Shown in pieces: positions 23,021 to 63,570 of a stretch of 64,000 nucleotides of DNA (its first letter is position 1; the number at the start of each line of letters is the position of its first letter). The notes under the pieces are model-generated. The model did no database searches. It worked only from the letters and a program-made list of their open reading frames with translations, and was not told where the DNA came from. The stretch comes from Gammaproteobacteria bacterium. GTDB lineage: Bacteria; Pseudomonadota; Gammaproteobacteria; Chromatiales; Chromatiaceae. Both the position numbers and the translations under genes were made by a program. The stretch is taken from NCBI GenBank assembly GCA_011390365.1, contig JAABSM010000004.1:23049-87048 (forward strand), given 5' to 3'.

Positions 23021-24223
23021 TCAGGAAAACAGACTCAAGGTCCGATGCGCCGCCTGGAGTTTGGCCGCTACCGGCACTCCATAGGGACAGGCCTGGTTGC
23101 ACGCCGCATCCCCGCAACCGGCGCAGATCGCGGCATTGGTCTCCAGCTCGGAATATTGGGCCATGGCACGCTTCTCCTCTTCATACTGCTCGAAGTACAT
23201 CTGATAACGCAGAATCGAGGCGATGGGAAGACCCGCGGGGCAGGCGGAGTGGCAATCGCCGCAGCCGGTGCGGCAGTAGTCGCTGCCGTGCTGGGCGGCG
23301 TAGCGATCCAGGGTCTCCAGGTCCGCCTTCTCCAGCGTCTTGCCGGAGGCGGGCAGGTAGTTGTCGAGATCGCTGACCCGCTTCATGGTCACCACCAGAC
23401 CCGCCACCTCGGGATGATTGAGCACCCACTTGAAGGCGGCCTGCTCGAAGGGCGCGCCCTTGGCGTCGAAATCCATGTCCCGGGCGCCGGCGAGGGTCTT
23501 CATCGCCACCACGCCGACCCCTTTCGCCGCCGCCTCCTTGAGCAGGTCAGGCACACGGGGAAATTTCATGAAGTTGAAGGCGGGCATGATGATGTGGTAG
23601 TGACCGGAACGCACCGCCTCCAGCATCAGCTCCTCCATGTGGTGGGGGCCATGAGAGGAGACCGCCAGATACTTCGCCTTGCCCTCCGCCTTGAGCTCAT
23701 CGAAGGCGGCCAGCATGTTCTCATCCAGCAGCCGCGCCCGCTCCGCCTCCTTGTCCGACTTTTCGCCCATGGCGTGGACGAATACGGCGTCGATGTATTC
23801 AGTGTTGAGCCGCTTCAGGCTCCCCTCCACCGCCGCCTTGTACTCCGCCTTGCTGGTGCCAGGCTGCAAGTGGCTCTTGCCGCTGACATAGGGGCCGGCT
23901 TCGCAGAACTTGGAGACAATGTAGATCTTCTCCCGCTCCTTGAAGCGCTTCATCGCCTGACCGAGATAGTCCTCACTGCGCCCATAGTCCGGCGCGGTAT
24001 CGAAATAGTTCACACCGCGATCAATGGCGCGCAGGGCCATCGCCGCCGACGGCAGCTTGCCCGCGCCAAACGAGATATCGCTCATGCGGATATCCGTCTT
24101 GCCCAGCTGACGGTATTGAACAATCTGCGCCTTGTCGTCACTGGCCTGCGCGACACCTGCCATACTGCCGGCGGCGGCCATCGGCAGAACGGCGGAAGAC
24201 TTGAGAAAATCACGACGTTTCAT
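23021..24223 (-). CDS. Tat-signal aldo/keto reductase with C-terminal ferredoxin domain
   Basis: This 400-residue protein starts MKRRDFLKSSAVLPMAAAG, a twin-arginine signal, so the folded cofactor-bearing protein is predicted to be exported. The aldo/keto reductase barrel (about residues 35-300) includes YFDTAPDYGRSEDYLG and VKTL-type strands (VVAMKTLAGARDM). The C-terminus holds cysteine clusters CRTGCGDCHSACP and CAGCGDAACNQACPYG, giving one or two 4Fe-4S centres. The physiological substrate is unknown. It is transcribed with the DUF6599-like gene. Confidence 0.88.
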   Translation of the reverse strand: MKRRDFLKSSAVLPMAAAGSMAGVAQASDDKAQIVQYRQLGKTDIRMSDISFGAGKLPSAAMALRAIDRGVNYFDTAPDYGRSEDYLGQAMKRFKEREKIYIVSKFCEAGPYVSGKSHLQPGTSKAEYKAAVEGSLKRLNTEYIDAVFVHAMGEKSDKEAERARLLDENMLAAFDELKAEGKAKYLAVSSHGPHHMEELMLEAVRSGHYHIIMPAFNFMKFPRVPDLLKEAAAKGVGVVAMKTLAGARDMDFDAKGAPFEQAAFKWVLNHPEVAGLVVTMKRVSDLDNYLPASGKTLEKADLETLDRYAAQHGSDYCRTGCGDCHSACPAGLPIASILRYQMYFEQYEEEKRAMAQYSELETNAAICAGCGDAACNQACPYGVPVAAKLQAAHRTLSLFS

Positions 24224-49749: not shown

Positions 49750-50125
49750 CCTTCTTTGGCTTGTTACACACCGGCTTCGGGAGCATAACCGTTCACACCC
49801 CCTTCCAAAAACTCCCTCTCCCTCTGGGAGAGGGTTGGGGTGAGGGCTCAAAACAGCTGGGGGTGTGAACGGTTACTCGGGAGCTGCGTCGCCCCCTCTG
49901 GTCCTCTCGCCTTCTTGTTACCAAGTTCTACTTGGTAATGCATGCAAGACAAGCTCTGCTTGTCGGACTGTACCGGGTATGGGGAGTCGAATGGGTTCGG
50001 TCTTTTCTGCGACAACTCTTGCCGGTGAATCCTCGTAGGTTGGGCTGAGGAACGAAGCCCAACACTCGAAGCTCAACCACATGGTGGAGGGTTGGGTATT
50101 TTTCTTCTGCCCGCAATGAAGCGGG
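49750..50125. other. Repeat-filled border of the accessory cassette
   Basis: These 376 bases hold an inverted CCTCTCCC/GAGAGGG REP copy (49811-49847), small hairpins (TTACCAAGTTCTACTTGGTAA region near 49918-49940; GACAAGCTCTGCTTGTC near 49949-49966) and a GGTTGGGCTGAGG/GCCCAAC palindrome near 50038-50065. Such repeat clusters often mark insertion boundaries. No gene is supported. Confidence 0.55.
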
Positions 50126-50821
50126 TCAGGAGGCCGTTGCGAAGCGAAGGCGACGCGTTTTAACTATTTCTGGAATGATGTTTTTGGTGACGTCCAGTCG
50201 CTTGTACACATCGCCCCCGATACCTGGCAAAACTTCACCAAGGCTATTGGTCTTATCATCCACCGCGAAATAAAGAAAATCAAAGCGATTTGAATACCTT
50301 GGAAACTCTCTTTTGAGTTCGTGGTCAGCACCTTCCAAAAGTACAGGTGCGGCAATGATAATGTTGTCGTCAGCGTGCAAATCATTCATGAGATTGGTCA
50401 TGTTGGTACGGACCGTACATCCGCTGGCGATAATGGACTTTACTACGACAAGCAAGTGATGTTTATCTTCTGAAAGGGGTTCGCGATACCTCTTTACAAT
50501 CGGAGAAGCGCTATCGTCGGTCCAGCGCTCGCCTGTGCTAACACGGGTATTCCAGAAGCAGACAAGGCGAATGGTCGAAAAAATCTCGCTATCTTCCGAT
50601 CCATCGACAATTCCTTTTGCCAGATAGTCGGCATCTTCAACGGTGCATGCGATAACCAGTTCGTCGTCATCTCCCGCTTTATTACCGATAATGGGCGCTA
50701 AGGCCAAACCGAGTTGATACATTGCTCTGCGATAGGCCTCGGTAGCGGTAGAGGATTCAGTCAGACAGTCTAGCAGTCTCTTGATATTGTCCGTCGAGTG
50801 TTCAGTCAATAGTCTGCTCAT
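50126..50821 (-). CDS. UPRT-like phosphoribosyltransferase-fold protein, altered PRPP loop
   Basis: This 231-residue protein follows the uracil phosphoribosyltransferase order: AYRRAMYQLGLALAP helix, an ACTVEDADYLAKGIVDG segment where UPRT has its RAGLG loop, VVVKSIIASGCTV (residues 125-137) at the PRPP loop, IIIAAPVLLEGADHELK, and FAVDDKTNSLGEVLPGIGGD near 185-204, matching the UPRT uracil-binding end. The PRPP-loop acids are lost (VKS for VDP), so it may bind rather than turn over ligand. The gene overlaps its nuclease-like partner by four bases and sits in AT-richer DNA. The family call is from pattern only. Confidence 0.7.
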   Translation of the reverse strand: MSRLLTEHSTDNIKRLLDCLTESSTATEAYRRAMYQLGLALAPIIGNKAGDDDELVIACTVEDADYLAKGIVDGSEDSEIFSTIRLVCFWNTRVSTGERWTDDSASPIVKRYREPLSEDKHHLLVVVKSIIASGCTVRTNMTNLMNDLHADDNIIIAAPVLLEGADHELKREFPRYSNRFDFLYFAVDDKTNSLGEVLPGIGGDVYKRLDVTKNIIPEIVKTRRLRFATAS

Positions 50822-51720
50822 AGCAATAACCCTTCCAGTTCACTGAAGCATGAGGGCGAGGAGTCCATCAAGATTTCCTGAAATTTCTTGAACCGAGGAT
50901 CCGAGCAGTCATAGGCGAGTGTCCCGCTTTCCAGTCCATCGTGCCAATTCCACGAAAAAAAGCCGTTGCTAGTAGAATAGCTGAAATCAGGGACCTTTCC
51001 AAGAATTTCTTTCACTTTATCGTTTAACGGGATAGGGTCAATAACGCCGCGGATATATGAAGGCTGTGTGCGTTTGGCCTTTCTCAGTAGTGCAGAGACT
51101 TCTGCTGGGGTATGGTTTGACGGAGATGCGTCCAGCCAAACAGATTGCAATATAATCGCTACCGCATCAAGCTTGTCGTCCTCCTCCGGGAAGGCACATA
51201 ATTTACGAATGGCGTAGTTGAACTCCGGAACCTGCAAGCGGAGTTCACGCATATTAGCTGCATGGGGAAAATGGTAAACTGATGAATATTCCGCGATTGA
51301 TTCAGGCATTGAATACCACAAAGAACGAGCGGAATTCAGGTCAGAAATTACGAGCTGGCAGGAAACTTTCCTTATGCCTGTGCAGGTGGATAGTTCCCGC
51401 TGAAATTCGAAGTCCAGGTATAGTGGATGTTTACCTGTGTCCCATTTGATTGCAGAAGAGTTCTTTAGCTGAAAGTACTGGACATCAGTATCGCTATTGA
51501 TGATCACAAAATCGTCAACAAAGCAGAAATGTTGCGAAATAAATTTACAATCGATTGATTTTTCTAGGAGATCTCTCGCTCGCTCGGCAAATTTAACAGT
51601 AGCGAAGTGACTCTCATAATCGGCCCCTTTTGCCCCGTGTGATCCACCACGGTGCTTGTTTGCCAAGTATTTGGCGACATCAGGCCCAAGCTTATCCGTA
51701 ACAATAGACAAAATAGACAT
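50818..51720 (-). CDS. Putative PD-(D/E)xK nuclease-like protein, first gene of accessory cassette
   Basis: This 300-residue protein has an N-terminal region like the DUF4297/Cap4 nuclease fold: GGSHGAKGADYESHFA (acid E36), FCFVDDFVII (D69 or D70) and DVQYFQLKNS (QLK at 84-86). The C-terminal 200 residues are alpha-rich and unrecognised (about residues 105-300). It is coupled by ATGA to the UPRT-like gene, so the two probably act together. The ATG at 51720 has no strong ribosome site. The DNA is markedly AT-richer than its neighbours by eye, suggesting transfer. Nuclease function is a hypothesis. Confidence 0.6.
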   Translation of the reverse strand: MSILSIVTDKLGPDVAKYLANKHRGGSHGAKGADYESHFATVKFAERARDLLEKSIDCKFISQHFCFVDDFVIINSDTDVQYFQLKNSSAIKWDTGKHPLYLDFEFQRELSTCTGIRKVSCQLVISDLNSARSLWYSMPESIAEYSSVYHFPHAANMRELRLQVPEFNYAIRKLCAFPEEDDKLDAVAIILQSVWLDASPSNHTPAEVSALLRKAKRTQPSYIRGVIDPIPLNDKVKEILGKVPDFSYSTSNGFFSWNWHDGLESGTLAYDCSDPRFKKFQEILMDSSPSCFSELEGLLL

Positions 51721-62310: not shown

Positions 62311-62369
62311 GCGGAGCGCACGGCTCGGCGCGCCAACGTCGCCCGGTGGCGAGTCAAGCCACGCGCCCC
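62311..62369. repeat. Degenerate copy of the 24-base-arm palindrome overlapping jetD stop
   Basis: The left arm GCGGAGCGCACGGCTCGGCG... (62311-62334) and right arm GGCGAGTCAAGCCACGCGCC (62348-62367) are related to 1425-1484. The TGA stop of the JetD-like gene (minus strand, 62354-62356) is inside the right arm, so the protein's last residues are repeat-derived. Confidence 0.75.
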
Positions 62370-63511
62370 TCTCCCCGCCACTCCCGCACCGCTCGCACAA
62401 CCCTTTCGGATGGCAGAAACTCCTGTTCCAGACGACCACGGGGTATGTTGATAAGGTGTTGGTATAGCGCCCGTTCCGCCTCGTCCAATCCGTCCGGCGG
62501 GGTATCACCATGGACCACGGGCTCCGCCACCGCCAAATCTCCCGCCAGCGCCGCGAACACCTCCCGCCCCATCAACAGCGCCTCAGCATGGGGCTGACGC
62601 CGCCGCGCCTCCGCCAGCATCGCCAAGCCCCAGCTATCCATGTCCCCCCAATAGCCCAACCGCTTCTCCGCCAGCCACCCCGCCCCCATCCAGCCCAGAT
62701 TGAGCCCCGCGCCGAGGATGGCGATGGTGTCCGAGCAGCGCGGTAGCTGATACAACGCCCGTTCGTTCTCCACGATCAGGATATGCCCCGCCGGCAACGG
62801 CGTCCGCGCCAGCTCGCTGCTGCGCACCCGCAACTGCTCGAAGGGCAGCAAACCTTCATCCAGCGCGGCCACCAACAGCCAGTGCTCGCCCTCATCCAAC
62901 GCCCCCAGAAACGCCTCCAGACCGGGCTCTAACGCCTCGGGGCCGAAACGGACCTCCATCAGCTTGGAGATCAGGGTCCGGTTCCGCTCCAAGAACTTGC
63001 TGTCACAGCCCGCGATGGATAGCGCCCGCAACGGCCGCCCCTGGGCGCAACCCGGCTCGACGGCCTGGGCGACGCGGCAGGCCTGAATCGTCTCCTCGCC
63101 GCCGCGGGTCAGGATCAGCTGACGCTGGCGCACGATCAAGGGATGAAATCCCGGATCCGTCGCGGCGAGGATGCGGGCGATCAGCGCAAACTCCTGCCGC
63201 ACCGAACGGTCATGCGCCGCCTCCGCCCACTCCTCCGTCGACCGCAGAACCCAATGCAACGGCAACTCCACCGCCTCCGCCACGCTGCGATAATTCACCG
63301 CCCCCCACTCGACCTCGCCGATTCCGACCTCCCGCCAGGCGCGGATATGCTCCCGCACCCTCGCCAGCTCATCGGTGATCTGTTTGGGTGATGGCTTGCC
63401 GATGGGCAGACGCAACGGCCACTGCCCCGGATCCAGCAGCCGCCTCTCGCGGATCTCGCCGTTCTGCCATTGGCGCTGGAGTTTTTGGGAAAGCTGTTGC
63501 GGGGTTTTCAT
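62354..63511 (-). CDS. JetD-like protein (DUF3322/DUF2220), orphan Wadjet subunit
   Basis: This 385-residue protein has an N-terminal DUF3322 region, the AGCDSKFLERN stretch at residues 168-177, and a C-terminal Toprim-like nuclease domain with acid E at ILIVENERAL (247-250) and GDMDSW (289-294). In Wadjet systems JetD cleaves plasmid DNA loaded by the SMC-like JetABC. No JetABC gene lies on either side: upstream are repeats and a PIN fragment, downstream convergent genes. Start ATG at 63511 follows a GGGG stretch. Confidence 0.88.
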   Translation of the reverse strand: MKTPQQLSQKLQRQWQNGEIRERRLLDPGQWPLRLPIGKPSPKQITDELARVREHIRAWREVGIGEVEWGAVNYRSVAEAVELPLHWVLRSTEEWAEAAHDRSVRQEFALIARILAATDPGFHPLIVRQRQLILTRGGEETIQACRVAQAVEPGCAQGRPLRALSIAGCDSKFLERNRTLISKLMEVRFGPEALEPGLEAFLGALDEGEHWLLVAALDEGLLPFEQLRVRSSELARTPLPAGHILIVENERALYQLPRCSDTIAILGAGLNLGWMGAGWLAEKRLGYWGDMDSWGLAMLAEARRRQPHAEALLMGREVFAALAGDLAVAEPVVHGDTPPDGLDEAERALYQHLINIPRGRLEQEFLPSERVVRAVREWRGEGRVA

Positions 63512-63570
63512 GGTTACAGCCACAGAGGCACGGAAATCACAGAGGCATCTGATAAAATGCCACCTCAAAC

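Follow-up and report, generated by a model that had tools for sequence, protein, structure and literature searches.

A conserved gene pair for a predicted Cap4-like nuclease and a uracil phosphoribosyltransferase-like protein, a possible bacterial defence module

Why would a gene for a protein with the predicted fold of a uracil phosphoribosyltransferase (UPRT) overlap a gene for a predicted nuclease? The two genes that raise this question lie on the minus strand of contig JAABSM010000004.1 (assembly GCA_011390365.1), from a member of the Chromatiaceae (Chromatiales). The 64,000 nucleotides (nt) analysed, positions 23,049 to 87,048 of the forward strand, are referred to as the window. We call the candidate nuclease gene 1 and the UPRT-like gene gene 2, and the two together the cassette (Table 1). 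Our reading is that the conserved pair is a defence module in which the UPRT-type partner restrains the nuclease until it senses a small ligand, probably one related to pyrimidines; the probability that we give to this reading is slightly below one half (about 0.47).

The gene pair and its two proteins

The two genes of the cassette are inherited together as a conserved unit. Scanning species genomes gave 87 confirmed stretches, from which 80 loci were kept, and a scan of viral sequences added six, for a total of 86 loci. A gene 1 homologue is the upstream open reading frame (ORF) in 73 of the 86 (68 with at least 245 amino acids (aa) and five shorter pieces), and tblastn finds one at two more loci, once in two frames. 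The remaining 11 loci include one at a contig end and four near-copies in viral contigs. The four-base overlap is common to 42 of the 83 loci that have an upstream ORF. Mean pairwise identity among the 67 complete pairs is 29% for the nuclease and 43% for the partner, with gene 2 being better conserved than gene 1 in 2204 of 2211 pairwise comparisons. The family distances of the two proteins are strongly correlated (mirror correlation r 0.904 versus at most 0.142 in 1000 permutations), and part of this value may be explained by shared host history.

The original prediction for this DNA had described two overlapping minus-strand genes that are AT-richer than their surroundings, and both points hold: the two ORFs and their overlap are present, and the GC content is 46.6% in the cassette versus 60.7% in the whole window, with no value as low in any of 1185 equal-sized windows lying outside the cassette. 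The repeat cluster that was said to border the cassette is reduced to one perfect inverted repeat on one side only, the remaining repeats being short and imperfect.

The PD-(D/E)xK fold proposed for gene 1 is supported by structure prediction and comparison. The predicted model has the nuclease core, and the predicted catalytic E, D and Q/ExK residues follow one another in the order that is characteristic of the Cap4/LmuA/DUF4297 nucleases. The positions first proposed for them are correct, and they are conserved across 67 aligned sequences, the window protein included. In a second structural alignment the top matches were LmuA, Cap4, HerA-DUF, Hachiman (8zue chain A, presumably the Hachiman nuclease HamA) and Avs3, every one a defence protein, and restriction enzymes resembled gene 1 at lower Z. 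The LmuA/Cap4 match came from this second alignment, not from Foldseek, which gave nothing at E 0.001 and, as its best match, the nicking endonuclease Nt.BspD6I at E 0.01. Searches of the PDB sequences with gene 1 and with the gene 1 profile gave no meaningful match. The Pfam Cap4_nuclease profile scores gene 1 at 17.3 bits, under its cut-off of 26.2, and matches three of the 70 alignment members with E values of up to 0.1, the best being 9.5e-5. By its predicted model gene 1 is classed with the Cap4/LmuA/DUF4297 nucleases in fold, but it is not assigned to the Pfam family; it would presumably cleave DNA. At one locus (L079, 2195-3757) the upstream nuclease ORF has 520 aa rather than the usual 280-340, perhaps because of a fusion or a wrong start.

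Gene 2 has the predicted fold of a UPRT, which structure prediction and comparison both support, and the segments VKSIIASGCT and VLPGIGGD are present as first described. In a profile alignment E62 takes the place of the arginine of the UPRT ILRAG motif and K128 that of the aspartate of DPML in the phosphoribosyl pyrophosphate (PRPP) loop; the arginine and the aspartate are each found in 23 of 23 UPRTs. Uridine monophosphate synthesis is not expected from the sequence, because a lysine and a glutamate align with the PRPP-loop aspartate and the facing-loop arginine of the enzyme. The PGxG of the uracil loop is kept, as PGIGG; in UPRTs this loop contacts uracil. The original prediction had spoken of a degraded active site; since the substituted residues are invariant or nearly so, their pattern points instead to a site that is rebuilt. 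The patterns used in the locus scan contained E62-D65 or K128-C135, and selection bias was checked separately: K128 and C135 are present in 11 of 11 loci found by the first pattern alone, E62, D63 and D65 in 27 of 27 found by the second alone, and among 76 further proteins from a profile search E62, D63, D65 and C135 are present in all and K128 in 75.

Gene 2 has many relatives: a single query brings up 224 proteins at E 0.001 and the profile 1139 at E 0.01. No Pfam domains were found in the best 120 of the 1139; neither window protein reaches the curated cut-offs of Pfam or NCBIfam. The host genome itself has no Upp gene that can be found with PF14681 or TIGR01091, and the host may be without uracil salvage by UPRT.

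Table 1. Positions in the window of the cassette, its predicted functional residues and the nearby inverted repeat
Feature	Position	Strand	Remarks
Gene 1, Cap4/LmuA/DUF4297-type PD-(D/E)xK nuclease candidate	50818..51720	-	ORF of 300 aa
E36 codon, predicted nuclease active site	51613..51615	-	65/67 aligned sequences, two gaps
D69-D70 codons, predicted nuclease active site	51511..51516	-	each 67/67
Q84-L85-K86 codons, predicted nuclease active site	51463..51471	-	Q84 66/67, K86 67/67
Overlap of gene 1 stop and gene 2 start, ATGA (TCAT on the plus strand)	50818..50821	-	4 bases
Gene 2, predicted UPRT-fold protein with apparently rebuilt active-site loops	50126..50821	-	ORF of 231 aa
E62-D63-A64-D65 codons, in place of the UPRT Arg-Ala-Gly loop	50627..50638	-	E62, D63, D65 each 205/205
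K128 to C135 codons, in place of the UPRT DPMLATG PRPP loop	50417..50440	-	K128 204/205, C135 205/205
P199-G-I-G-G203 codons, retained UPRT uracil-loop motif	50213..50227	-	P199, G200 205/205; G202, G203 204/205
Perfect inverted repeat	49786..49875		17 nt; arms 49786-49802 and 49859-49875

A possible restraint of the nuclease, and other explanations

How might the two proteins work together? We propose that the gene 2 protein would hold the nuclease in check and that the nuclease would be released when a small molecule enters, or leaves, the rebuilt pocket. The likeliest signal would be a pyrimidine, as base, nucleoside or nucleotide, that changes in level during infection. A pyrimidine-related signal is favoured because the uracil-loop motif is retained, and a sensor that evolves slowly and has invariant pocket-loop residues would be better matched to a metabolite than to a phage protein, which evolves fast. 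Phosphoribosyltransferase (PRTase) folds that have been turned into ligand sensors have precedents in PyrR and PurR, both of which are among the structural matches of gene 2. The fullest version of this idea, that a swap of charges in two active-site loops made a uracil-salvage enzyme into a sensor of metabolites, which keeps a Cap4-type nuclease clamped until a phage shifts the pyrimidine pool, is possible, and as a whole we consider it doubtful. A UPRT-derived partner would be a new mode of control for such nucleases and would link immunity to pyrimidine metabolism; the invariant loop residues allow direct and cheap tests.

The evidence for restraint is indirect and comes from a survey of 388 cyanobacterial genomes of one class, about 5% of which have the system in a patchy distribution. 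All 16 full-length nucleases stand beside a full-length gene 2; 14 of them have no internal stop and two (G438 and G421) have one. There are 21 full or nearly full copies of gene 2, and five of these are without an intact nuclease: in G413 the nuclease is interrupted, in G600 and G323 there is none within 1.5 kb, in G283 its last 60 residues are left, and in G347 it is absent and gene 2 is itself cut by the contig end. Thus, the partner is present for 14 of 14 uninterrupted nucleases, and the nuclease is missing or broken for seven of 21 partners. This pattern fits gene 2 being a restraining partner.

A defence role is what we infer from the company that some homologues keep. Of ten hand-picked neighbours of homologues, five had defence matches, which included Type III restriction enzymes at two Marinobacter loci, a Septu-like pair in Pseudomonas and STK_OB in Parabacteroides; the other five gave no match. 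A Pfam scan of five other neighbours identified an ETF-QO, an ADP-ribosylglycohydrolase and a KAP NTPase, with two lacking a match. PADLOC at 1e-10 assigned 241 families to 115 of 170 neighbour genes versus 55 to 92 genes from 19 arbitrary stretches, a comparison that overstates the difference because it counts families, and that uses simple ORF gene calls and control genomes of other taxonomy.

Several observations weigh against the proposed module. Some homologues do sit beside known defence genes, and one pair is in a viral contig next to an integrase-like ORF, but in the window itself the genes directly flanking the cassette are ordinary ones (a mechanosensitive channel, a hexapeptide transferase, a radical SAM protein, an Lgt-like protein and a patatin). 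None of the outcomes named beforehand as fatal to the original prediction was observed, neither models without a PD-(D/E)xK core or a PRTase fold nor homologues confined to conserved housekeeping surroundings. The loss counts are small and come from a single class. Moreover, nuclease fragments occur alone (G519, G520 and a second piece in G613), as do partner fragments (G294, G445, G493 and G580), which indicates that both genes decay.

Among the other explanations, one would make the UPRT-like protein a required activator that turns on the nuclease once it has bound its ligand, in the way of the SAVED domain of Cap4; alone or without ligand, both proteins would be silent. The conserved pocket residues of gene 2 would agree with this, as would the closeness of the gene 1 fold to LmuA and Cap4, in which a partner subunit or domain does the switching on. 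However, under an activator model orphan nucleases that are intact should be about as frequent as orphan partners, and there were none among the 16 nucleases while seven partners had no intact nuclease; because of these losses restraint is favoured over an activator like that of the cyclic oligonucleotide-based antiphage signalling system (CBASS), and we regard activation as unlikely. The rebuilt site could also be that of a new enzyme acting on a nucleotide or nucleic-acid base, whose product or substrate controls the nuclease. E62, D63, D65, K128 and C135 each occur in 204 or 205 of the 205 sequences despite the mean identity of 43% among paired partners, as catalysis predicts, this invariance withstood the check for selection bias, and validated defence systems include enzymes of nucleotide metabolism (PMC13092281). 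A strict ligand pocket would give equal invariance, however, and the substrate is only hypothetical, so that a new enzyme seems improbable to us.

The retained PGIGG and the resemblance of the nuclease fold to restriction enzymes would be expected if gene 2 read a flipped-out uracil or modified pyrimidine in DNA and the nuclease cut nearby; such modification-dependent restriction is quite improbable, since the losses suggest restraint and no DNA-binding surface or domain was seen in gene 2. About as small a chance is given to an addiction pair of the toxin-antitoxin type that serves mobile DNA without a role in defence. The asymmetry of loss, the low GC, the patchy spread, and the occurrence of gene 2 on plasmids and of the pair in a viral contig are all in keeping with addiction, but the antitoxin-like partner evolves more slowly than the nuclease and has invariant pocket loops, which is unusual for a plain protein antitoxin, and the nuclease fold is of a defence type. 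Finally, gene 2 could be an ordinary pyrimidine salvage gene next to an unrelated one, as its fold and the label uracil phosphoribosyltransferase in the source record of one relative would suggest. The key UPRT residues are replaced in all or all but one of the sequences and 73 of the 86 loci are paired, so that the chance of this is close to negligible; the candidate of an ordinary UPRT was rejected on account of the replaced loop residues.

Relation to known systems

The known partners of defence nucleases with the Cap4/LmuA/DUF4297 fold include cyclic-nucleotide sensors, SMC-like proteins, ATPases and helicases. In Lamassu the nuclease LmuA works with the SMC-like LmuB, whereas the conserved partner of gene 1 is a UPRT-fold protein. 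In Cap4 the SAVED sensor is a domain of the nuclease protein itself, which works together with a cyclase; in gene 1 the part matched to the nuclease is followed by about 78 residues, and the UPRT-fold partner is a separate protein. The CD-NTase cyclase and SAVED or CARF sensor that define a CBASS operon were not found, the partner being UPRT-fold and no further neighbour being common across the partly annotated loci. The partners of the HerA-DUF4297 and Hachiman nucleases, the HerA ATPase and the HamB helicase, also differ from the one described here. Membership in Lamassu and CBASS was rejected because of the different partner; for the same reason retron membership seems unlikely.

On the side of gene 2, Upp differs in the arginine and aspartate of its two active-site loops, and PyrR and PurR, which regulate through RNA or DNA, resemble gene 2 less closely than the UPRTs do. 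Type III-A retrons resemble the pair in having a PRTase-like protein within a defence operon, and the PADLOC profile PRTase_III-A weakly matches 19 of 62 gene 2 family members (best E 6e-4). Those retrons have a reverse transcriptase, a noncoding RNA and a winged-helix protein (PMC12548924), whereas the conserved neighbour here is a nuclease. No reverse transcriptase names occur among 25 of the 241 PADLOC families mentioned above, in a search for them that was not exhaustive. Across 185 genomes the PRTase_III-A profile weakly matched 20, the best match (E 1.2e-8) having two internal stops, and these 20 are probably cross-matches to other PRTases. One Escherichia coli defence system found with DefensePredictor is given a PRTase in a figure legend (PMC13092281); judged from that legend, it may be an experimentally tested relative of the pair. 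Titles and abstract openings in the literature covered, which mostly leaves out subscription papers, contain no description of such a pair. The kind of nuclease is known, and the UPRT-type partner appears to be new.

Spread and side observations

The gene 2 tree contains seven phyla by record titles and has nine label changes, the minimum possible being six. The full pair is present in at least five bacterial phyla, a lower bound chosen because one of the seven phyla depends on a contig (L025) that is probably mis-binned and another has, at locus L048, a piece of the nuclease only. Gene 2 is nearly identical between L025, a Paceibacterota contig from a metagenome-assembled genome, and a Paraburkholderia locus (L021), which suggests the mis-binning. 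The GC content of the pair is under that of its flanks in 56 of 61 pairs, with an average deficit of 7.4 points over all 61. Among relatives of the window genome the pair is found in three of 56 genomes, its own included. In two classes other than cyanobacteria the pair is uncommon. In the class of G276, both genes are present in the seed genome only out of 205, with one further nuclease match at E 9e-4, and in the class of G274 the nuclease alone is present in the seed genome only out of 395. Two cyanobacterial plasmids carry gene 2, and in a viral contig (L087) the pair adjoins an ORF that looks like an integrase from its sequence. Together with the GC deficit and the patchy presence, these finds suggest that the unit is mobile. 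The phage records of INPHARED gave no match, and neither did E. coli genomes searched by blastn with two distant members, a search blind to relatives at 40% protein identity. A comparison with empty sites was uninformative, as a true orthologue of the flanking radical SAM gene was found in one of 37 other genomes (G049, of another family).

Some loci have other sequences at the position of the nuclease. The viral contigs L082, L083, L085 and L086 share the start region of gene 2 with L084; L084 keeps the whole nuclease, and the other four keep its last residues only, preceded by unrelated DNA, so that the loss looks like replacement by an insertion or deletion. Two related Leptolyngbya-type loci (L027 and L036) have an apparent PIN-toxin/antitoxin pair there, upstream of an orphan gene 2.

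Elsewhere in the window, near the contig end, positions 62354-63568 of the minus strand give a strong match to the Wadjet protein JetD (PADLOC, E 8.7e-157). In the single frame tried, the sequence does not stay open over the next 430 bases, and JetC was not seen there; the gene may be an orphan JetD.
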